Translations under genes and position numbers: made by a program | In this document: positions 6,635-21,489 of the stretch, in pieces | How positions within the stretch are numbered: the first letter of the stretch is position 1 | How the letters are laid out: each line of letters starts with the position of its first letter | Notes under the pieces: model-generated | The model's input: the letters and a program-made list of their open reading frames with translations, nothing else | Told to the model about the DNA's origin: nothing | Database searches by the model: none | DNA from: a virus | IMG/VR virus record: IMGVR_UViG_3300049224_000026 | Span: 1-23,022 of that record | Strand: one strand, 5' to 3' | DNA length: 23,022 nt

Positions 6635-8152
6635 TTAAAACTCAACTATGATTTTAACATCCTCTGTTTGGTCAGATGCTCGTGAAATAGGTCTTCTGTT
6701 TTCTATATAAATTATGTCCCCACTATCTGGGTGCATTTCTGGATTTGCATATCCACTTGAAAATGCGATACTATCAACAGTTTCAGAACCAGTTGATGAT
6801 GGAGTGCCAGATGCACTAGAGTCTGCACCAGATACTGCATTTGCACCAGAAAATAAAACTGTGTTACTTGCAGTATTAACACCATAATTTGTAAATCTTT
6901 CTTGTTGATAATATAAAATCTTATTTGTTGCATCCCATTCAACGACTCTACCGATTGCACCAGTAGTTGCTTGAGTTATTTTTTCATCTGCATCAAAATC
7001 TCCACTTGGTGAAGGAATATAAATTGCATATGTTTGTCTGGCAGTAGATGCTGTAAATAATGACGAACTGTTAAATTGAGTAGGATTTTTCATAATACCT
7101 ACTTGTCTAAAGTCGTTTGCAACAGTAATATCATTACCTTCTTCTTGTTCAAACTTTGTATTTAAAATTATATAGTGTCCACCTAATTCTTCAACTGCAT
7201 CGTGTCCGTGACCAACTTGAGGTGATATAATTGGAGTTATAGTTCCAGCACTAGCTGAATTCCAAGTTGATAAAGTACCTCCACTTATTAAAGATGTTGC
7301 ACCAGCATTTGTATAAACATTAGTTCCTGCCAAATCTACTGTTGCAAAAGTATAATTTGCACCACTAGCTTGTACTGATGATACACCAGTTTCACCAAAT
7401 CTTGTTATTACATTTGAACTCACAACAACCTTTAAGATTCCACCAGTTCCGTCTCCAGCAACTTTAACATAATAAGTTCCATCTGGATATCCACTACCTT
7501 GACTTGTTACCAAGAAAGTATCAATAGGAGCACCATTAAAAGGTGCAGAGTCTGTACTTGTTGTTACTGCACCAGATGATACAGTTGAGTCTGTTGCGAC
7601 TGCCATAAAGTCAGTTGTTAAAAATTTGTCTACTTGAGTGGTTGTCAATGTGTACATATATTGTAAATAATAACCACCAACAAATTGTTTTACTGGGGAA
7701 GTAAAAGTAGGTTCTGTTGAAAGTGCGATTTTTACTCCAGAAGAATTTAAGTTATATAAAACTTTGTAAACTCTGTAATCTGAAGTTATGAAAAAATATG
7801 TAGAATCAACAAGATTACTTGCACCAGTTTGATTTGAAGGATTAGCTGCACTAATGTTATGTTCGTACATATCGTAAGTAGTACCAGATGTATATGTTCT
7901 TCTAGGAACACCTCTTGATACATCAGAAGATGCAATCGCATTTGCACCTAACATTGAGTCCCATCTATAATTCTCTGATGTAATATCGTCTACTGGACTT
8001 GGTGGAGAAGTATCACTTCCACCAGAAGTTCCACTAGTAAAAGGAGTTGATTTTCCTACAAACATATAATAGTTTTCGTTTGTTTCAGAAAATGATTCCT
8101 CAAACTGAGCAGCATTTGTTTGTCTAAATTTTTCTGTAATAATTGCAGCCAT
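6635..8152 (-). CDS. 8: Baseplate wedge protein gp8
   Basis: This 505-residue protein is recognisable as T4 gp8, a dimeric baseplate wedge subunit joining gp6, gp7 and gp10. The N-terminus AIITEKFR with FVGKSTPF about 20 residues later parallels AIVTSKFR and FITFGRSEPW in T4 gp8. The internal RGVPRR, DFRQVGIMKNP and the C-terminal SGDIIYIENRRPI with DQTEDVKI also parallel T4 gp8 near its end. It is clearly longer than T4 gp8 (about 334 residues). The extra length includes a GSGYPDG module near residue 220, a FDADEKITQATTGAIG module near residue 380 and a Ser/Gly-rich stretch. A Shine-Dalgarno AAGGA sits 5 bases before the ATG. The gene lies between the fibre array and the giant DUF4815 gene, whereas in T4 gp8 follows gp7 directly. 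Homology is from memory of the T4 sequence, not an alignment. Confidence 0.88.
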   Translation of the reverse strand: MAAIITEKFRQTNAAQFEESFSETNENYYMFVGKSTPFTSGTSGGSDTSPPSPVDDITSENYRWDSMLGANAIASSDVSRGVPRRTYTSGTTYDMYEHNISAANPSNQTGASNLVDSTYFFITSDYRVYKVLYNLNSSGVKIALSTEPTFTSPVKQFVGGYYLQYMYTLTTTQVDKFLTTDFMAVATDSTVSSGAVTTSTDSAPFNGAPIDTFLVTSQGSGYPDGTYYVKVAGDGTGGILKVVVSSNVITRFGETGVSSVQASGANYTFATVDLAGTNVYTNAGATSLISGGTLSTWNSASAGTITPIISPQVGHGHDAVEELGGHYIILNTKFEQEEGNDITVANDFRQVGIMKNPTQFNSSSLFTASTARQTYAIYIPSPSGDFDADEKITQATTGAIGRVVEWDATNKILYYQQERFTNYGVNTASNTVLFSGANAVSGADSSASGTPSSTGSETVDSIAFSSGYANPEMHPDSGDIIYIENRRPISRASDQTEDVKIIVEF

Positions 8153-8180: not shown

Positions 8181-8474
8181 TTATGACGGTTCTGTTGGCC
8201 AAGTGACTTTATTTACTTTGTCCTCAGTATCTAATCCATTTGTTAAATCTCTTAACTCTTGTCTATAAGTTTTCCAATCAGAACTCATTGTCACATCAGA
8301 GTTTGCTCTCCAATCTGATTCACTTAATTTATTATTTCTTTCATTTCTTAAACCAGCAATCGCTCTATCGTAAGCACCTTTTGCCCACTCTACATCTCTT
8401 GCTTCAAGTTCTTTTATTTCTGAATCGGTCAAAGGTATTTTTTCACCATTAACCATTTTATGTGTGTATGCCAT
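8181..8474 (-). CDS. Small tail-fibre assembly chaperone-like protein (third copy)
   Basis: A 97-residue hydrophilic, charged protein. The second half, with LRNERNNKLSESDW, SDWKTYRQELRDL and a final VTWPTEPS, fits the Phage_tail_APC/fibre-chaperone type of short protein that follows phage fibre genes (R-x-LL-x-SDW ... W-x-YR-x-LRDL ... WP-x-P). Such proteins are thought to help fold or trimerise the fibre encoded upstream, here the one at 8506-9441. Its last 30 or so residues nearly repeat those of the protein at 11887-12255, also at the DNA level. A strong Shine-Dalgarno AGGAG stands 6 bases before the ATG. The N-terminal part (MAYTHKMVNGEKIPLTDSEI) is unlike the other copy and probably decides partner choice (inference). 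Confidence 0.7.
   Translation of the reverse strand: MAYTHKMVNGEKIPLTDSEIKELEARDVEWAKGAYDRAIAGLRNERNNKLSESDWRANSDVTMSSDWKTYRQELRDLTNGLDTEDKVNKVTWPTEPS
8189..8275 (-). repeat. Direct repeat, copy A (3' end of chaperone-like gene)
   Basis: About 87 bases that are mostly identical to 11894-11980, beginning with the same GGTTCTGTTGGCCAAGT on the plus strand. It encodes the shared C-terminus YR-x-ELRDLT ... GLDT ... WPTEPS. Confidence 0.85.
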
Positions 8475-11886: not shown

Positions 11887-12255
11887 TTAGCTTGGTTCTG
11901 TTGGCCAAGTAACTTTTTTTACTTTGTCAACAGTATCTAATCCTTTTGTTAAATCTCTCAGTTCTTCTCTATACACTTGCCATTTACCTTTAGTTGTACT
12001 ATCCATTCTAGAGTCACTTATGTCTGGCATTTGTGTCCAATCACTTTCTCTTAAAAGTCTATTTCTTATTGGTCTTATTTCATCTAATGCTTCACGAAGT
12101 TCACCCTCATCTTTTTTTGCTAATAATTCTGATTCTGTTGGTTTCGTTGTTGATTCGTCTAACCAAGTTAAATTTTTATAATCAGTTTGGTCATTACCCA
12201 CTAATTCCCATAAACAACCAGGCCAATAGTATTCTAATAATTTTGCTATATTCAT
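11887..12255 (-). CDS. Tail-fibre assembly chaperone-like protein
   Basis: A 122-residue protein. It begins MNIAKLLEYYWPGCLWELVG and continues with a substrate-like segment YKNLTWLDESTTKPTE. A helical part then carries IRPIRNRLLRESDWTQMPD, WQVYREELRDL and a final VTWPTEPS. The R-x-x-LLRESDW ... W-x-x-YR-x-x-LRDL ... WP-x-x-P pattern is that of Phage_tail_APC-type (fibre assembly chaperone) proteins. Its position right after the fibre at 12260-12796 fits. Its 3' end is a near duplicate of the 3' end of the gene at 8181-8474. It starts 4 bases after the upstream stop. The family call is reasonably firm; the client fibre is inferred. Confidence 0.72.
   Translation of the reverse strand: MNIAKLLEYYWPGCLWELVGNDQTDYKNLTWLDESTTKPTESELLAKKDEGELREALDEIRPIRNRLLRESDWTQMPDISDSRMDSTTKGKWQVYREELRDLTKGLDTVDKVKKVTWPTEPS
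11894..11980 (-). repeat. Direct repeat, copy B (3' end of chaperone-like gene)
   Basis: The partner of 8189-8275, 3705 bases away in the same direction. The sequence between the two copies spans six fibre-array genes, so recombination between them would delete or swap that block. Confidence 0.85.
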
Positions 12256-12805: not shown

Positions 12806-13192
12806 CTAAAGTATAACAACATCTCCCTCTATTGTCAATGTATTACCAGAAGTAACCGTGATAGGCCCTACTGCCACTGCATTGACTCCTTGAGGAATTG
12901 TAAGTGTTTCATTTAAAAATTTAGTGTTTGCTCTAAACTGTGCTGATTGTCCGAAAGATTGGGGAATGGCATTTGCATCTAGGACATCATTATATTGAAC
13001 TTTATCACCAGCGTTAGCACTAGCACCATCTGTACCGTCAAGGATTAAATTATCACCAGCATTAGAACCTCCACCATCTGTTCCGTTAAGAATAATATTA
13101 ACAGATGCACCAAGACTAACTGATGCATTAATCTTAGCAGTTGTGATGGCACCGTCTGCGATACCATCAGTTGGAAGTTGAAAGACAGCCAT
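12806..13192 (-). CDS. Small fibre-like protein with two DGTD repeats
   Basis: A 128-residue protein. Residues 1-25 include DGAITTAKIN, the fibre repeat also found at 8506-9441. Residues 32-70 hold two acidic repeats of the form I-I-L-N-G-T-D then N-A-G-D-N-L-I-L-D-G-T-D and A-N-A-G-D-K. A beta-rich end follows (NETLTIPQGVNAVAVGPITV, then a hydrophobic GDVVIL terminus). It is too short for a full fibre and may be a linker or tip piece. An AGGA Shine-Dalgarno overlaps the stop (TAG) of the upstream gp10-like gene. The function is inferred only from the shared repeats and position. Confidence 0.6.
   Translation of the reverse strand: MAVFQLPTDGIADGAITTAKINASVSLGASVNIILNGTDGGGSNAGDNLILDGTDGASANAGDKVQYNDVLDANAIPQSFGQSAQFRANTKFLNETLTIPQGVNAVAVGPITVTSGNTLTIEGDVVIL
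12983..13099 (-). repeat. DGTD/AGD repeat pair in small fibre protein
   Basis: Residues 32-70: two clean units, IILNGTDGGGSNAGDNLIL and LDGTDGASANAGDKVQY, the clearest form of this repeat in the window. Confidence 0.8.
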
Positions 13193-13200
13193 AATTTATC

Positions 13201-14112
13201 CTATGATATGGTTGCACCGTTACTAGAAACTACATTCCAGTTTGCACCATTGTAAACTAAAACAACACTTTCACCGATTGCATTAAATACAATACTTGTA
13301 GAAACATTGGTAGAGTTTAAGTTACCATTTGATTGTGTCATTGTTGCATTGTTACCAGCAACAGTCATAATGATTATTTTTCTTTGACCAACAAAACGAC
13401 CAGTTGCAAGAGTAAGTCCAGCAGTACCACTAGCTGTGTTTATAAGTGATACTTCAGTATCTTTATCTAGTGCGTTAGAACCACCAGCACCAGTAATGGT
13501 TTCAGTTGATGAACCTTGAAGTGTTGATGTTTTGTTTGGTAGTGTGACTGTGACATTACCAGAATATACAGCGTGAGCTGGAGATTCTATTGCAACATAG
13601 TGTGCATTTGAACTCTCACAATATAATCTTACTTGTGATTTTGCACCACTATTTTTTACATCAATAATACCAGTTGTGAAAATGATATCATCATCACCAT
13701 TTATTTTAAAGTGAATAGTATCATCTGTGTCAGCAGTGATAGATGTATCAGCGTCTGCATCTAAAACTAATTCTTTACCATTAAGGTCAAGTTTAGTTGC
13801 AGTCATCTGAAATATATCAGCACCACCTATTTTAAAATCTATTGTATCGTCTGAATCAGCAGTTATTGAAGTATCTGCATCAACATCTAAAATAAGTTCA
13901 GAACCATTAAGGTCTAAACTTGTAGCGATTACTGGGGCTGTTAATGTAACTACGGTTGCAGTTGCACTCATCCCAGAAGTTAAAGCAGAACCAGTACCTA
14001 ATAATGTGTACAGTTCTACAAAGTTATCGTTTGCCTTGTCACCTCCAGCTCTGAGGGTATCGCCTGTCCCATCATTTGCTGAACTTCCAAGTCCGATAGA
14101 TTGATATGCCAT
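13201..14112 (-). CDS. Baseplate-anchored fibre protein with gp9/gp10-type N-terminus
   Basis: A 303-residue protein. Residues 4-38 (SIGLGSSANDGTGDTLRAGG, then DKANDNFVELYTLLG) match the N-terminal pattern of T4 gp10 (NIG-x-x-x-DDGTGD-x-LR-x-GG-x-K-x-NENF-x-ELY-x-x-LG), also seen in a related form in gp9. In T4 this region attaches the protein to the baseplate. Residues 67-108 and 109-150 are a tandem 42-residue repeat (DLNG-x-EL-x-LD-x-DADTSITAD-x-DDTI-x-FKI). The C-terminal half has strands ending in a GESVVLVYNGANWNVVSSNG pattern. It is about half the length of T4 gp10 (602 residues), so it is better seen as a gp10-N fusion to a fibre shaft than as gp10 itself. A late promoter core and AGGAG precede it. 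It opens the fibre array. Confidence 0.72.
   Translation of the reverse strand: MAYQSIGLGSSANDGTGDTLRAGGDKANDNFVELYTLLGTGSALTSGMSATATVVTLTAPVIATSLDLNGSELILDVDADTSITADSDDTIDFKIGGADIFQMTATKLDLNGKELVLDADADTSITADTDDTIHFKINGDDDIIFTTGIIDVKNSGAKSQVRLYCESSNAHYVAIESPAHAVYSGNVTVTLPNKTSTLQGSSTETITGAGGSNALDKDTEVSLINTASGTAGLTLATGRFVGQRKIIIMTVAGNNATMTQSNGNLNSTNVSTSIVFNAIGESVVLVYNGANWNVVSSNGATIS
13663..13914 (-). repeat. Tandem 126-bp coding repeat in gp10-N-type fibre
   Basis: Two in-frame copies of a 42-residue unit (residues 67-108 and 109-150) with DLNG-x-EL-x-LD, DADTSITAD and DDTI-x-FKI in the same order. They probably form repeated beta segments of a fibre shaft. Confidence 0.85.
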
Positions 14113-14149: not shown

Positions 14150-17100
14150 TTAAGTTGCAGTATTATCAAAAGTTAATCCCATATCTGATAAAGTTGCATC
14201 AAATCTAAATGCACTTGCATCAAATGTAGTTGTTATGTTTGCAGTTTGTGAAACACTAAAGTCTGCATCAAATCTTGCATAATCACCACCTAGTGTATCA
14301 TCAAATTTGTATAGTGTTTGTGAGAAGTCTAGTGGATTAGTTAATCCAGCAAAACCTACATCAAACTTGACACTATTTGAGTCAAATGTTTTATGTGTCT
14401 CAGAGAAATCTAAGAACTCTTGACCCAATGTGTCTATTGTCTTACCACCAGCATTGTCTTCATCAAATGTTTGTCTAATATCATCAAATGTTCTAAAGTC
14501 CATATCAAATGTTTGGAACATACCAGTTTTAGTAATTCTTAATTCACCTCTTGGTGGTACATTGATTCTTGTAGTAAATGCAGATGGTGCTATAAAGTTT
14601 CTACTTTCATCAAAGAACCTTGTTGTAGAATCAAAGTTCTCTTCATCAGTATCACTAAATCCACCAGTAACAGATACTTCATTTATTTTAACATCTTTAA
14701 ATTGGTCAATAGTAAAATAAGTATCAACATTTTCATCATCACCTAAAAATCCCTCTTGCATAAATCCATATTTCGCAAGGTTAACTAAAAAAGGTGCAAA
14801 TGATGATGATGTTGCACCACCCATAGTTACTGAAACAGAACTTGATAATGTAAGTTCTCTTTTACTAGATGGTAATACTGTTCCACCACCACTTGTATTT
14901 TCTTGATAACCAATAGCTGGAGTTGTATTTAAAGTTGTACCATCAGTTGCTGTACCTAACCTACGACCAAATACAGTTGTAAATAGAGTTGTAAGTGTAG
15001 ATGCAAGTTCTGGAGTGAATGTTTCAGTATCACCTACAAATCCAGAAATCTCAGAACCAGTAGGTATTTTAAGTTGTGCATTGACTAATGATGCAATAGT
15101 AACTTGTCCGAATACTGCAAACCCAGCAGGGTGTGTCGCAGTTCTAATACTATCACGCCACTCATTAATTGATTCACCTATTTTCACAACATAAGAAAAA
15201 TCTTGATAGTAATATGAATCTTGGATTCTCATAGTATCTTCAGATACAAATCCTTTTGAACCTATGAAGTTACCAGTTGTTCTACCAGTTGCACCAGTAG
15301 TTAAATCACCATCAGCTGTTAAACATTGTACAACTATTCCACTTGCAGTACCAGTTGTAATTAAATCACCCTCTTCTGGTGTATGTGTTGAATTTATTTT
15401 AATGGTTTGTTTTGCACTATCAAAGGAAACAATAGTTCCTTCTGATGATGTTAAACCTTCTGTTGCAACAAATGTTCCAACAATGTCTTTTACTAATACA
15501 GTTTTATTAAATCTTACAGAATCTCTTACTGTATCTTCATTTAAGATTGCATCACCTTCACCCTCATTTTCTAATAATATTTTTTGGCCAGATATTGCTT
15601 CACCAGTAACAGTTGCATCTTCTAATATGTGATAAACAGAATCGTTCTTATACCCAGAACCGAAGTTTCTAATACCTACTTCTGTAACACCACCAACTCC
15701 AGTATTAGATTTTGCAAGAAGTTTTGCACCAGTACCACCAGATACAGTTATAGATGGTAATTTAGTATAACCATTACCTTCATTTGTAATTCTTATTCTT
15801 CTTATCTCACCTTGTTCTTGTGACGGTAATGTTGCAGTTTCTAATTGTGTAAACTGTTCATTTTCAAATAGTAATACATCATCACTATCTGATAATTCCA
15901 TAGTGATTCTAGAAGCACCATCATTCTCTTGAACTATATTATCATTTTCGTTAGCACTATTTGTATCAGTACCATCAAGAACTATGTGGTCAACAGTTGC
16001 ATCTTGTTCTAATATCAAGAACTCTGGTTCAGATTCTTCTCTTAGTAATCTAAAGTTTCCTAATTCGTCTTCTAATATAAAATCGTTATTGTTATCTACT
16101 GGTAGTGATTGTCTAAATCTTTCAGATGAATTTGTTTCTTCACCGACTAACACACCAGTTTGTATTGCACTCGTAACAACAGAATCCTCTGTAAGTATTT
16201 TTGAATTTGCATCTGACCCAGTTGCATCTGTTCCATCAAAAATTATATTAGTGACACCATCAGAATCATTTTCTATTTGAATATGATTTGTAATGAAGTT
16301 GTCTGGGTCAACTGGTGTTTCAATAATTATATTATCACCAGCATCTGCGTGGGGGGTTGCAGTTCTATTTAAAACTATATTTACATTTTCAAAGGTTGCA
16401 TCTTCTTGTTCTATATCACCGACATCATCAACAATAATACTTTCTCTTTCATCAGTAATAATGTTATCACCAGATGTTGCGTTTTCTAATTGTATTGAAC
16501 CACCTACAATATCAACATTTGCTTCTACACCAGTACCATCTGTATCACTATTATCAAATTGAAGTTGAGCTCCATTTGTATAACCAGTACCAGTATCATC
16601 AATTATTATTTCATCTATCTTACCTTTTGATACATCTGCAACAACCATTTCTGCAAAACCATCACCACCTATTACAGTTACTGGGTCATTGATTTCATAA
16701 TACTGTCCACTTCTAGTAATATCAACACCAGAAACAATTTCTTGTATGACTGCAAAAATATCAAAATCATTATTAGGGTCTGTTCCAAAAACAGTTTCAC
16801 CAATTTGAAATGTTCCAGTAATAGAGTTATCTGCAATTCTTAATTGTGCAAACGCATTACCACCCTCTGTAAATTTAGTGACTGTCGTGATTCTTGCTGT
16901 TGCACCAGATGTTCTACCAGTTATTATTTTATTAGAAAGACTACCAAAGTCTGATGTGCCTGTTTCAATAACTTTCATAACAATTTCTGAGTCCCAGAAA
17001 CCGTCAGAAACTCTTAACATATTATCTCTTGGAAATACTATTTCAGCTTCTTCATCAAATAATAATCTAAAGAAATATTTGTGGCCATCAATAGTACCTT

Positions 17101-17689
17101 TAGAAGTATATAAATCTTTTATTGTTTTTATTAATTGTCTTTTTGATACACCACTTGCAAGTGTTTCACTAATACCTTCTAAAAATGAATCTCTAAATTG
17201 AGTTAAGAAATCATATATGGTATTATCAACATCTGCATAATCTAAAAGTTGTTGAATGTTTTGTATTGGATTACCACGAAACTGTGTAATTGTAGCTCGT
17301 GCATTAGAAGTTAAACCTTGAATCTCTTCATTGGTTTCAAATTTATTTTGTGAAGTAATATATAATACTTGATTGTCATCAAAGTCATCAATTAAAACTG
17401 TCGCAGTTGCATTAGATGTTAAACCTTTAACTGTTTCACCAACTGTAAACTTTGCAACAGAATCTTCTAATACAACATTCTCATCACCTTTCTCATTTAA
17501 AATATAATTATTAGATGTTGTTTCTTGTAATACATAATTTACTTCACCAGATATTGTAAGTTGTCCACACTCAAGATATCTATAATAATCTTTTAAAAAT
17601 TTTACAAATTTAGGGTGGTCAGATTTTAAGAACTCTGGAACGAATTCTTGCAATAAAGGTGAGATTTTTTTATCAAATGTAGAAGACAT
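14150..17689 (-). CDS. 7: Baseplate wedge protein gp7-like, with inserted repeats
   Basis: A 1179-residue protein following gp6 as gp7 does in T4. Residues 9-43 (ISPLLQEFVPEFLKSDHPKF ... YYRYLECG), residues about 187-220 (KTIKDLYTSKGTIDGHKYFF ... LFDEEAEI) and residues 852-857 (THPAGF) parallel blocks in the C-terminal third of T4 gp7. Between and around them lie modules not expected in T4 gp7: F-x-x-GE-x-x-G-x-TSNATA units at 81-136 and 255-270, GxGYT units near 361-373, 632-655 and 671-683, and an acidic DGTD-type block at about 398-620. The last 150 residues are a tail with 12 FD dipeptides. The N-terminal beta-rich part of T4 gp7 is not seen. The start overlaps the gp6 stop by one base (TAATG). 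gp7 identity is from remembered motifs plus synteny. Confidence 0.78.
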   Translation of the reverse strand: MSSTFDKKISPLLQEFVPEFLKSDHPKFVKFLKDYYRYLECGQLTISGEVNYVLQETTSNNYILNEKGDENVVLEDSVAKFTVGETVKGLTSNATATVLIDDFDDNQVLYITSQNKFETNEEIQGLTSNARATITQFRGNPIQNIQQLLDYADVDNTIYDFLTQFRDSFLEGISETLASGVSKRQLIKTIKDLYTSKGTIDGHKYFFRLLFDEEAEIVFPRDNMLRVSDGFWDSEIVMKVIETGTSDFGSLSNKIITGRTSGATARITTVTKFTEGGNAFAQLRIADNSITGTFQIGETVFGTDPNNDFDIFAVIQEIVSGVDITRSGQYYEINDPVTVIGGDGFAEMVVADVSKGKIDEIIIDDTGTGYTNGAQLQFDNSDTDGTGVEANVDIVGGSIQLENATSGDNIITDERESIIVDDVGDIEQEDATFENVNIVLNRTATPHADAGDNIIIETPVDPDNFITNHIQIENDSDGVTNIIFDGTDATGSDANSKILTEDSVVTSAIQTGVLVGEETNSSERFRQSLPVDNNNDFILEDELGNFRLLREESEPEFLILEQDATVDHIVLDGTDTNSANENDNIVQENDGASRITMELSDSDDVLLFENEQFTQLETATLPSQEQGEIRRIRITNEGNGYTKLPSITVSGGTGAKLLAKSNTGVGGVTEVGIRNFGSGYKNDSVYHILEDATVTGEAISGQKILLENEGEGDAILNEDTVRDSVRFNKTVLVKDIVGTFVATEGLTSSEGTIVSFDSAKQTIKINSTHTPEEGDLITTGTASGIVVQCLTADGDLTTGATGRTTGNFIGSKGFVSEDTMRIQDSYYYQDFSYVVKIGESINEWRDSIRTATHPAGFAVFGQVTIASLVNAQLKIPTGSEISGFVGDTETFTPELASTLTTLFTTVFGRRLGTATDGTTLNTTPAIGYQENTSGGGTVLPSSKRELTLSSSVSVTMGGATSSSFAPFLVNLAKYGFMQEGFLGDDENVDTYFTIDQFKDVKINEVSVTGGFSDTDEENFDSTTRFFDESRNFIAPSAFTTRINVPPRGELRITKTGMFQTFDMDFRTFDDIRQTFDEDNAGGKTIDTLGQEFLDFSETHKTFDSNSVKFDVGFAGLTNPLDFSQTLYKFDDTLGGDYARFDADFSVSQTANITTTFDASAFRFDATLSDMGLTFDNTAT
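14153..14605 (-). repeat. FD-rich C-terminal tail of gp7-like protein
   Basis: The last 150 residues hold 12 FD dipeptides, most preceded by T, R or K (QTFD, RTFD, KTFD, VKFD, YKFD, ARFD, TTFD, FRFD, LTFD), spaced irregularly by roughly 5-30 residues. Confidence 0.75.
15830..16498 (-). repeat. Acidic DGTD/AGD repeat block in gp7-like protein
   Basis: Residues about 398-620. Several units of the form hydrophobic-V/I-L-(D/N)-G/R-T-(D/A) followed by (N/D)-A-(G/N)-(D/S)-x-I and an acidic strand (examples NIIFDGTDATGSDANSKI and HIVLDGTDTNSANENDNI). They lie between conserved gp7-like blocks, so they look inserted. Confidence 0.7.
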
Positions 17690-19587
17690 TAGTAACCACT
17701 TGAGGAACTACTTCCAGTAGTAATATAAGATGTTGATGTATCAGCAGTTGTTACAGCAGCCGATGTTGTTGCAACAGATGAACCAGAACTTGAGGTTGCA
17801 GTGTCTACCTTTCCATTAACAGTTGAATTAGGTAAATCTATTTCTAATATATTATTTCTCAAAGGTATTATATCTGGAGATGATGGAACTGCAACTATTC
17901 TAATTTGTGTAGATGTTGCACCATCAACATTAGATATACTTGTTATTTTTGCACTAGGTATAGATACTTTACCAGCAATATAATCAACAGTACCAAAATT
18001 TGCATCTACAATAGTCTTCGTTGTACCAACAAAATAATAAGTTCTTAATGTACCATCTGTGTCATCAATGAAAAGTTCGTTATCATTACCACTTACTTTA
18101 AATCCAGTTGATGATACAACAGCTTCGTGACCACTATGAGGATTATATATTGAATTACCAAAGTTTACTGTATATGATGAATTGGTGTTAAGAGTTGGTG
18201 TGATTTTTTTAGACATTTGAATAGTAGTTACATTTGAAGTTATTGCACTATCAGTATCATCTATTTGTCCAATCAAATCTGAAAATCTAAATTGTGAATT
18301 AAATTGTTCTAAAGTATTTGCACTATAAGTTGTAAGTGTTGTTACAATTAATGCATTTAAATCATTAACTGTTTTTGTAGTAATTGTAGAATTATACTTA
18401 TAATTCGTAGTCAATCTAATCTGAATAGTTTCTGGGTCAACTATTTCTGTTCTAATAGATGCAACATTATATGGTTTTAAAGAATTTTGTATTGTAGACT
18501 TTTGAGAATTAGTTAATGTGTTTCCATCATTTGTTTTAATAGAGATATAAACTATTCCATATTTTGGTGGGTCATTATCTTCACCACCCCAAACTGAAAC
18601 AGCTGCAGTATCTGGAAATACTTGTCTTACAAATACTTTGTAATCATTTACTGTGACTGCTCTATTTTGTGCAGAGTAATCTAAAGGTGCATTAAATTTA
18701 ATACTATCAATAGTTTCTCTTGTTGCACCACCAGTGGCTGCAGATGTTGTCGTAACAGTATATGCAGTAGAACCAGAAATTTGTGAAGAACCAGTAAGAC
18801 TGCCTGCACCATTAGCTAAAGTTTCGTTAGTAACAATATATTCTAAAACAACTATATTACCATCAGTTAATTTTTTACCTATTACACCATCACCAAATAA
18901 TATTTCGTGTTGTCCATCTTCAACCTCTTGTATAAAAAATACATTAGATGTAGATGTTGCTTGAACTATGTCAGCAGATTCTGTATATGTTTGAGTAGTT
19001 GAATCGGTTGAAGAGTTTTGTACAGTAACTTTAAGAGTTGACATATCTGCTTTTGTATCTGCAATTATAAATCTTTGGTCAATGTTATCTGCATCAACAG
19101 TATATCTTGTTGTGATTAATGTTCCCTCAAATACTTCTAATCCTTCAAATCTTAATACATTATTTTCTCTTGATTTAGTAACTGCTTCATTTGTAATAAA
19201 AAAATAAGGAACATTATCAATAGATGATTGAAAAGAAAAACCTTTTGGTATTGTTGCAGTTGTTATGCCAGTAATTGCACTAACCTCTACATTAACTATT
19301 GCTTTAGGTGCTCGTGAACTTCTTACTTTATAACCTAATAGTTTTGCGTGTGATACGACTGAAGAACGAAGTTGTGCAGTATCAAGAAACATCTCATTAC
19401 CCATAAGGTTTGCGTTCATAGCTTGATAGTGCGTGTTGTATGCAAGAACATCTAATAAGACATTCATACCAGAACCTTCAAAGTCGTAGTCTGTAAATTC
19501 TGTTTGATTTTTTAGGAATGTTTTTAAATTACTTTTGATACCATCAAAATCTAATTCTGTAATTCTTAATCTTTCTTTATTTGCCAT
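17689..19587 (-). CDS. 6: Baseplate wedge protein gp6 (baseplate-J type)
   Basis: A 632-residue protein, close to T4 gp6 (about 660). The N-terminus RITELDFDGIKSNLKTFLKN, with DFEGSGMNVLLDVLAYNTHY and the following MFLDTAQLRSSVV, is the typical gp6/baseplate-J opening. The central part (residues about 290-400: APLDYSAQNRAVTVNDYKVF ... VWGGEDNDPPKYG) is the conserved J-like region. The C-terminus is a Ser/Thr-rich tail of about 35 residues. In the contractile baseplate, gp6 dimers form the iris that holds the wedges together with gp7 and gp25. It overlaps gp25 upstream and the gp7-like gene downstream by one base each, so the three wedge proteins are made from one coupled unit. Confidence 0.93.
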   Translation of the reverse strand: MANKERLRITELDFDGIKSNLKTFLKNQTEFTDYDFEGSGMNVLLDVLAYNTHYQAMNANLMGNEMFLDTAQLRSSVVSHAKLLGYKVRSSRAPKAIVNVEVSAITGITTATIPKGFSFQSSIDNVPYFFITNEAVTKSRENNVLRFEGLEVFEGTLITTRYTVDADNIDQRFIIADTKADMSTLKVTVQNSSTDSTTQTYTESADIVQATSTSNVFFIQEVEDGQHEILFGDGVIGKKLTDGNIVVLEYIVTNETLANGAGSLTGSSQISGSTAYTVTTTSAATGGATRETIDSIKFNAPLDYSAQNRAVTVNDYKVFVRQVFPDTAAVSVWGGEDNDPPKYGIVYISIKTNDGNTLTNSQKSTIQNSLKPYNVASIRTEIVDPETIQIRLTTNYKYNSTITTKTVNDLNALIVTTLTTYSANTLEQFNSQFRFSDLIGQIDDTDSAITSNVTTIQMSKKITPTLNTNSSYTVNFGNSIYNPHSGHEAVVSSTGFKVSGNDNELFIDDTDGTLRTYYFVGTTKTIVDANFGTVDYIAGKVSIPSAKITSISNVDGATSTQIRIVAVPSSPDIIPLRNNILEIDLPNSTVNGKVDTATSSSGSSVATTSAAVTTADTSTSYITTGSSSSSGY

Positions 19588-20455: not shown

Positions 20456-21352
20456 TTACTCTGTAATAACAAAGTTTTCATCCTCTAATAATATAAATGC
20501 TTCATCATTTATTCCATCTTCATCATCTTCTAATTGTATTCTATTTTGTGCATAATAACTACTTACATATCTTCCTATAAATGATAAATCATTTATCACA
20601 GCGTGTGTTAATGTTGCAGAAAATGTTTTTATACTACTTCTTATTTTATGTGTTGTCGTGGTTGAAGTTATGGGGTCAGTTTCCGATATTTCTAGTTCTT
20701 CATAATACAATACTGTAACACTATATGTAAATCTGTATTGGTCAGTAAAATCTGGATTCATACTATACAATGTATATTTTTTTCCTAAAGACTCATCATT
20801 ATGATTTAAAGGCATCTTATCTATACCAGTAAAATCAAAACTCCCAGAAAATAAATCACTTTCTCCTTTAATAACAAACTGACCAATATCAGTAAACCTA
20901 CGACTATAAAATCCAGATGTTGTTGCACTTCTACCACCATTTGTAATCGTTATATCTGGTTCACTATCTGCAAGTGTATCTTCTAATAAAATTACATCTG
21001 TATCTGCTCGTACCTCATCTTCATCACTAACTGGAGTTCCTTCTTCTAGTAATACATTTGCATCAACTATTGCAGCTTCTAATTGTAATTTATCTCCAGC
21101 ATCTGCACCAGATAAATTAGTTCTATTAAAAACAATGTTATCATCATCTTCTGTAATAATATTATCTATTGAGTTAGTGGTTGCTGGTTCTAAATAAAAA
21201 TTATGAAACTCTCTATCTAAAGATAAAGATGTAGAAACTATTACTTCGTTTGGGCCTGGAGTCGCAGTTACAGTTCTTGAAAATACTTGACTATGACCAT
21301 TCTGTTGTCTAACTACACTTGCAAACCTTGATGAAGGTGATATTGTTACCAT
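20456..21352 (-). CDS. Unknown baseplate-region structural protein with acidic repeats
   Basis: A 298-residue protein between the spike genes. I do not recognise its core. N-terminal strands (MVTISPSSRFASVVRQQNGH, then SRTVTATPGPNEVIVSTSL) and a C-terminal half with GFYSRRFTDIGQFVIKGES and YRFTYSVTVLYYEELEISE look beta-rich and structural. Residues 60-135 and the last 29 residues are acidic repeats (ITEDDDNIVFNRT ... GADAGDKLQLE ... ILLED) of the same type as in the gp7-like protein. I chose ATG 21352, which overlaps the 45-residue gene's stop (TAATG). A TTG 27 bases earlier would need to read through that gene's coding end. T4 gp53 occupies a nearby place, but no LysM motif is visible, so I do not call it gp53. 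Confidence 0.72.
   Translation of the reverse strand: MVTISPSSRFASVVRQQNGHSQVFSRTVTATPGPNEVIVSTSLSLDREFHNFYLEPATTNSIDNIITEDDDNIVFNRTNLSGADAGDKLQLEAAIVDANVLLEEGTPVSDEDEVRADTDVILLEDTLADSEPDITITNGGRSATTSGFYSRRFTDIGQFVIKGESDLFSGSFDFTGIDKMPLNHNDESLGKKYTLYSMNPDFTDQYRFTYSVTVLYYEELEISETDPITSTTTTHKIRSSIKTFSATLTHAVINDLSFIGRYVSSYYAQNRIQLEDDEDGINDEAFILLEDENFVITE
20948..21175 (-). repeat. Acidic DGTD/AGD-type repeat block in 298-residue protein
   Basis: Residues 60-135. NIVFNRTNLSGADAGDKLQL and following VLLEEGTPVSDEDEVRADTD are the same repeat type as in the gp7-like protein. Confidence 0.65.
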
Positions 21353-21489
21353 TATCCTTGTCCACGATACTTCTTCCAACTACTTCTTTTATGTTTATTC
21401 ATAGTAGAAGTTTTAATTTTACCCCTACCAATAGATGTTCTTTTAAAAGTAGGTTCGTAGACTGACATTGTATTCATTTTTTTAGCCAT
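21352..21489 (-). CDS. Very basic 45-residue protein next to gp5
   Basis: A short gene, MAKKMNTMSVYEPTFKRTSI continuing GRGKIKTSTMNKHKRSSWKK and ending YRGQG. It has 13 Lys/Arg against one Glu and no hydrophobic segment. It is supported by a strong AGGAG Shine-Dalgarno 6 bases before the ATG (overlapping the gp5 stop TAG) and by a one-base TAATG overlap with the next gene. I believe similar short proteins sit at this place in other T4-like marine phages, but I cannot check it. A nucleic-acid- or spike-associated role would be a guess; the function is unknown. Confidence 0.78.
   Translation of the reverse strand: MAKKMNTMSVYEPTFKRTSIGRGKIKTSTMNKHKRSSWKKYRGQG

Follow-up and report, generated by a model that had tools for sequence, protein, structure and literature searches.

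The C-terminus of the gp7-like baseplate wedge protein encoded in the window (the whole 23,022-nt stretch, a 23-kb virus record from a T4-like marine phage) carries a real, conserved and ordered array of Phe-Asp (FD) triplets. This FD-rich end is probably the peptide onto which the fibres clip. The best explanation, and one that we regard as reasonably probable, is that the array would act as a linear docking arm for the fibre connector encoded by the next gene, with the triplet as the working unit. Only a handful of solved phages show how a single baseplate chain holds a threefold fibre and how the number of fibres is set. With a motif that can be recognized in the sequence, the fibre-carrying protein and its partner gene, and perhaps also the fibre copy number, could be predicted for metagenomic phages infecting abundant marine bacteria.

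The wedge protein and its gene neighbourhood

By profile match and gene position, the 1179-aa protein is a T4 gp7-like wedge protein. It matched PF23786 (Baseplate_wedge) in two stretches with 43.3 bits (cut-off 27) and, weakly (E = 8e-4), phrog_964, a profile of 1030 positions which, judged by this length, is probably the T4 gp7 family. The order of genes is gp5, PAAR, gp25, gp6, gp7, fibres, gp8 (PAAR and gp25 were named by eye from sequence and position); the wedge gene sits between gp6 (17689-19587) and gp8 (6635-8152), with fibre genes in the interval. Its closest named relatives are the proteins of Methylophilales phage Melnitz (41% identity) and of Pelagibacter phages Mosig (38%) and HTVC008M (33%). 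A search of solved structures with the gp7 alignment gave no match.

Residues 4-50 of the 303-aa product of the next gene correspond to PF07880 (T4_gp9_10_N, 28.7 bits, cut-off 25); the protein also matched PF25692, phrog_677 (baseplate wedge tail fiber connector) and T4 gp10 chains in PDB (E = 3.7e-5). Its N-terminus is T4 gp9/gp10-like, with the pattern DGTGDxLRxG..KxNxNF. By analogy with T4 gp9 and gp10, as described in the available text of PMC3004832, the connector would be a homotrimer. Coordinates of the features are given in Table 1.

Table 1. Features of the wedge protein gene, its FD array and the adjacent fibre connector gene
Feature	Coordinates	Strand	Evidence or remark
gp7-like baseplate wedge protein, 1179 aa	14150..17689	-	PF23786, PHROG wedge/structural families, gene order
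FD pair ahead of the anchor, residues 1019 and 1026, spacing 7	14609..14635	-	sequence
Recombination joint, gp7 body to FD tail	14551..14580	.	identity step against L018, L024 and L026
Conserved anchor TTRINVPPRGEL, residues 1039-1050, preceding the FD array	14540..14575	-	alignments
FD triplet 1: F1061, F1068, F1075, spacing 7-7	14462..14509	-	sequence
FD triplet 2: F1095-S, F1102-D, F1109-D, spacing 7-7	14360..14407	-	sequence
Irregular triplet 3: F1122-S, F1129-D, F1140-D, spacing 7-11	14267..14326	-	same spacing in L029
Irregular triplet 4: F1156, F1163, F1174, spacing 7-11	14165..14224	-	same spacing in L029
Fibre connector, 303 aa, gene directly after gp7, proposed partner	13201..14112	-	PF07880, PF25692, phrog_677, T4 gp10 in PDB
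N-terminal attachment domain of fibre connector, residues 1-50, ANDGTGDTLRAGGDKANDNF	13963..14112	-	profile and structure-database matches

Several repeats were seen elsewhere in the window. The fibre connector gene has an internal duplication of about 105 bases (13685-13788 and 13812-13914, 78% identical). A repeat of the approximate form I[VIL]L[DNE]GTD..S.NAGD.I.LED was recognized by eye in the middle of gp7 (15900-16500), in a 307-aa ORF upstream (20456-21379) and in a short ORF of the fibre region (12806-13192). The ORFs at 8181-8474 and 11887-12255 have, again by eye, a common C-terminal module ending in YR.ELRDLT.GLDT.DKV.KVTWPTEPS.

The triplet as the unit of the FD array

Residues 1029-1179 (14153-14605, 151 aa) contain 10 FD dipeptides. 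Shuffles of the same 151 residues gave 2.6 on average and none of 20,000 reached 10; a chance origin of the FD richness is thus excluded. The first-pass annotation had reported 12 FD in 150 residues; the pattern stands while the count needs correction, as the best 150-residue segment of the protein holds 11 and the 12 are found in 161 aa (residues 1019-1179, from about 14635). The whole protein has 19, with 12 of them in these last 161 residues. Most copies are indeed preceded by T, K or R, as that annotation had remarked. The dominant spacing is 7 residues and the motifs are grouped by three, with two exact (7-7) and two irregular (7-11) groups in the window. The anchor ahead of the array has the consensus TRINVPPxxEI; in locus L072, which has a different fibre gene, the protein stops 5 residues past it. 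The FD pair located ahead of the anchor is missing in L023-L026, which retain the post-anchor array.

The loss of the pattern from close orthologues, which the first-pass annotation had named as evidence against its conservation, was not found: all 11 close orthologues (L005-L015, 1179 or 1183 aa) keep 12 FD within their last 200 residues, as does L029, with a tail just 66% identical. A tblastn search of named phages with the tail alone gave matches in just two, Melnitz at E = 3e-3 (4 records) and Vibrio phage VBM1 at E about 1 (2 records); therefore, an annotated copy of the tail is absent among named phages.

Spacing was analysed in 33 non-redundant tails out of 70 with the anchor (L002 and L003, which have no anchor, were left out), against shuffles keeping the FD units intact. 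Pairs of [FYW]D at distance 7 occurred 128 times (shuffle mean 20.2, maximum 36 in 2000) and exact 7-7 triplets 46 times (shuffle mean 1.5, maximum 9). The motif consensus is [TS]-F-D-[EN]-T-x-x-[TS]-F-D. Run lengths were counted in 41 tails (the 33 plus L002 and seven others) with a lenient motif, [FYWLM][DSN], where a run had to hold at least one [FYW]D. The 136 runs obtained comprised 28 of length one, 21 of two, 84 of three, 1 of four and 2 of five; a geometric distribution of equal mean predicts 55, 33, 19.5, 11.6 and 6.9, respectively. With the strict motif [FYW]D there were 47 single motifs, 45 pairs, 49 triplets and 1 run of five; the preference for three thus rests partly on the lenient definition. 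At one and the same site the array ranges from one group to about five: single-triplet tails exist in Mosig, Melnitz (L001 and L002 together), L055, L069, L093, L097 and L157, and the tail of L035, with five groups, marks the upper end. Gaps between groups vary from 9 to 21 residues. In L113 and L130 an FD pair has a more distant aromatic residue ahead of it, which counts against the docking model.

Some arrays are messy (L080, L076 and L044); these and the irregular 7-11 groups, two of four in the window, weaken the docking model. Along with the strict run counts they would suit a loose array that binds the fibre connector by avidity, the threes being a product of repeat history or of linker geometry, not of one FD per subunit. 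We consider such an array unlikely: tandem growth free of constraint should produce many long runs, yet triplets make up 84 of the 136 lenient runs and only 3 are longer than three, and the minimal natural tails are single triplets.

Coupling to the next gene and joint inheritance

A gp7 match was present in 155 loci, 114 of them including a stop, and 56 loci were kept after removing near-copies (ratio over 0.9) and loci with no visible next gene. Where a gp9/gp10-like fibre gene came next, at least one FD-7-FD pair was present near the gp7 end in 48 of 48 loci; where another gene or no fibre gene followed, in none of 8, an overall agreement of 56 out of 56. One of the eight is L072, in which the gene after gp7 has a different start; the other seven are HTVC008M-like, and in six of these gp8 comes directly after gp7. 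Within the HTVC008M clade, L113, L121 and L130 have both the fibre gene and the FD end, and the other seven members have neither. The tree of gp7 N-termini needs two changes of label (bootstrap range 2-3), so the agreement weighs as two to three independent events only; the co-occurrence argument is further weakened by the fact that adjacent genes are physically linked anyway. The fibre subtype (NDN or NAN) was also tried as a predictor of the number of FD-7-FD pairs and was unsupported (Fisher p 0.32).

Comparison of the window with loci L018 and L023-L026 revealed a common history of the tail and the fibre gene. DNA of gp6 and of the well-aligning gp7 body is mostly 71-76% identical; the tail and the fibre gene are 85-92% identical in long blast pieces. 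In 150-base blocks the identity is 68-73% on the body side (14551-14700) and 85-93% at 14401-14550, with the step at the anchor; beyond the step it is 81-97% through the fibre gene, and the exchanged block continues past this gene to at least 12766. Values of dS between the window and L018, L023, L024 and L026 are 0.32-0.46 in the tail and 0.64-1.15 in the body; for the fibre gene dS is 0.27-0.32 (L018, L023 and L024) and 0.14 (L025). Judged from these alignments, recombination transfers the FD tail and the fibre gene as a unit, and the joint is sharply placed just ahead of the tail. Given the steps in identity and dS, tail conservation in these loci is largely due to recent exchange, not to selection alone. 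There is no such step between L018 and L024 (dS of 0.70 in the tail and 0.80-0.97 in the body), and none in L029, where the FD motifs are still retained.

The same triplet in other proteins

Viral contigs were scanned for TTTGAT-N15-TTTGAT-N15-TTTGAT with no protein specified; the control had N18 spacing (8-8). Among the matches listed, the N15 scan yielded 113 reading frames of at least 100 aa (88 gpJ-like, 12 gp7-like and 13 other) and 8 further matches that were not in frame or fell in short frames; such out-of-frame or short-frame matches numbered 85 among those listed for the control. Tail proteins of the gpJ-like or gp7-like kind accounted for 100 of 113 frames listed at 7-7 spacing versus 14 of 59 at 8-8.

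Lambda gpJ-like proteins make up the second family (phrog_31, E = 2.5e-76; PF13550), which occurs with the triplet in Pelagibacter and Roseobacter phages, among them the isolates HTVC202P and HTVC111P (Pelagibacter) and CRP-831 (Roseobacter). A closer look was taken at 80 of 119 listed loci. For the 88 gpJ-like members listed, the next gene has the fibre N-terminus NQxFPxxRxDLN in 69, is not visible in 12 and was scored as neither fibre class in 7. Throughout the scan the class labels are pattern-based; by eye, L259, L276 and L249 have class-A N-termini and L263 a class-B one, though scored as neither. With hhalign no homology was detectable between fibre N-terminal classes A and B (reference set of 50 of 57 listed references plus the window; L031 was left out for a bad coordinate and L108, L109, L110, L118, L120 and L122 as relatives of L105), and hence a pocket shared by both classes is not established. 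Cyanophage MED4-117, whose gpJ-like protein lacks the FD triplet despite a class-B-like fibre next to it, and Pelagibacter phage HTVC026P, whose triplet is degenerate, count against the docking idea; Rhizobium phages I4, TM16 and P106B, having neither the triplet nor a class-B-like fibre N-terminus, are in line with it.

Other occurrences were recorded in passing. L203:4685-7669 and its relatives are gpJ-like marine phage proteins that have one FD-7-FD-7-FD triplet or two and are encoded next to fibre genes. L206 and L269 have FD triplets in 850-890 aa proteins outside the gp7-like and gpJ-like families; the reading frame after that of L206 contains SQGFRNNFSAIKDSL, possibly a third class of fibre N-terminus. 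In L193:12101-12904 and L213 a triplet is located at the extreme N-terminus of a 268-270 aa protein (MAILFDSGYGLFDSAAGNFDDGG).

Conceivably, the true ligand of the tail is some other protein, either one more fibre or structural protein encoded in the exchanged block or an adjacent baseplate component such as gp8, and the tail accompanies the fibre gene by mere adjacency; the block does go beyond the fibre gene, and the joint could simply fall within a conserved stretch. We think this quite improbable, as presence of the tail tracks the type of adjoining gene in distant lineages too (L072 and the HTVC008M clade) and the same motif is present in the gpJ-like protein of other phages beside a fibre gene of another class.

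Predicted structure and selection

AlphaFold2 models had a mean pLDDT of 35.3 for the full wedge protein (9 sequences) and 48.6 for residues 827-1179 (51 sequences). The tail was modelled as coil at pLDDT 32-48, with a short hairpin at the very end only. As the models are poor, disorder of the tail is suggested, not proven; the predicted coil would fit a flexible arm. The first-pass annotation had offered a stack of short beta-turns as one reading of the motif, for which the model gives no support, though a prediction of this quality leaves some room for it. Folding of the tail into a small solenoid, or into stacked beta-turns packed as a compact domain, would explain the regular spacing; it appears very improbable against the low-confidence coil, the gaps of variable length between the groups and the change in array length at one site. 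A 7-residue spacing with such variable gaps between groups does not resemble known solenoids.

Neutral expansion of a functionless low-complexity sequence deserves next to no credence: slippage can enlarge repeat arrays and the FD codons are mostly TTTGAT, but purifying selection on the tail (dN/dS of 0.03-0.05 among close and 0.13-0.34 among distant relatives) already contradicts it, as do the spacing, retained while residues between motifs change, and the FD of L029, kept with both TTTGAT and TTTGAC codons.

A proposed model of fibre docking

We propose that the C-terminal 120-140 residues of the wedge protein would serve as a docking arm, extended and probably unfolded, to which the trimeric fibre connector would attach. 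The working unit would be the aromatic-Asp triplet at exact 7-residue spacing, each FD occupying one of three equivalent pockets in the threefold N-terminal domain of the connector (DGTGDxLRxG..KxNxNF), so that one asymmetric chain would satisfy a threefold partner; the Asp of FD may pair with a conserved Arg of the fibre domain. Tandem triplets would provide several sites or avidity. To hold a trimer, a monomer has to break symmetry, which three equivalent motifs on a single chain would achieve. Docking of one triplet per trimer is proposed because of the T4 gp7/gp9 arrangement and the E217 loop. In T4, according to the available text of PMC3004832, the gp9 N-terminal domain binds one domain of the monomeric gp7, and both gp9 and gp10 are trimeric; in E217, as the available text of PMC10329688 describes, a long gp45 loop is accommodated by the trimeric N-termini of the next-encoded fibre. 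The sequences show the array, how well it is conserved, that it co-occurs with the fibre gene and that both are inherited as one block; physical binding, the presence of one FD per subunit, the Phe/Asp pocket chemistry and the stoichiometry are what we infer. Under the model arm and fibre would have to be exchanged together, which would explain the recombination joint.

The first-pass annotation had also suggested a chain of short motifs that bind a partner such as the fibre anchor of the next gene, and this suggestion gains indirect support, at the level of sequence, from the co-occurrence in all 56 loci (on two to three independent changes), from the inheritance of tail and fibre gene as one recombination block and from the reappearance of the triplet in another family of tail proteins, likewise encoded next to fibre genes.

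A bolder version can be put forward tentatively, and we would sooner doubt it than rely on it: a symmetry-breaking linear code in which one triplet stands for one fibre trimer, the number of triplets sets the number of trimers per wedge, gp7-like and gpJ-like proteins both use the code and fibre sets are swapped together with the arm.

Comparison with known systems

Attachment of fibres to wedge proteins is of an already known kind; the FD array itself appears new, in that a narrow literature search found no report of such an array of short linear motifs for tail fibres or baseplates. T4 has the same neighbourhood of gp7 and gp9/gp10 genes as the window, whose connector has a gp9/gp10-like N-terminus, and it has a monomeric wedge protein holding trimeric connectors (the oligomeric states in the window being assigned by analogy); however, T4 gp7 has no FD array. 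In T4 gp7 (L161) the element DVRWSADDVRFSSQDITFAKLG (residues about 262-279) has aromatics at 7-7 spacing (W-S, F-S, F-A); in the comparison of T4-like sequences it is retained in 6 of 6, counting T4 itself, and two Vibrio phages have it in altered form. As a site for gp9 (PDB 5IV5) it is a lead only. T4 gp12 has KFDPTDTNF near its start (residues 17-25, F-7-F).

In Pseudomonas phage E217 (gp45/gp46) an extended stretch of the wedge protein likewise lies in the trimeric N-termini of the directly following fibre, but it is a single internal loop, and the available text of PMC10329688 mentions neither an FD motif nor a tandem array. In cyanophage A-1(L) a C-terminal loop of the wedge protein gp32 helps to anchor the N-terminus of the long tail fibre; this loop is short (residues 129-151), a second anchor is located in gp31B, and repeats are not mentioned in the available text of PMC10966104. 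The gpJ-like proteins are unrelated to gp7-like ones, their triplets lie mostly 150-230 residues ahead of the C-terminus and their neighbours have a fibre N-terminus of the other class (NQxFPxxRxDLN); nevertheless, they have the same FD-7-FD-7-FD triplets, often two per protein, and are likewise encoded beside a fibre gene.
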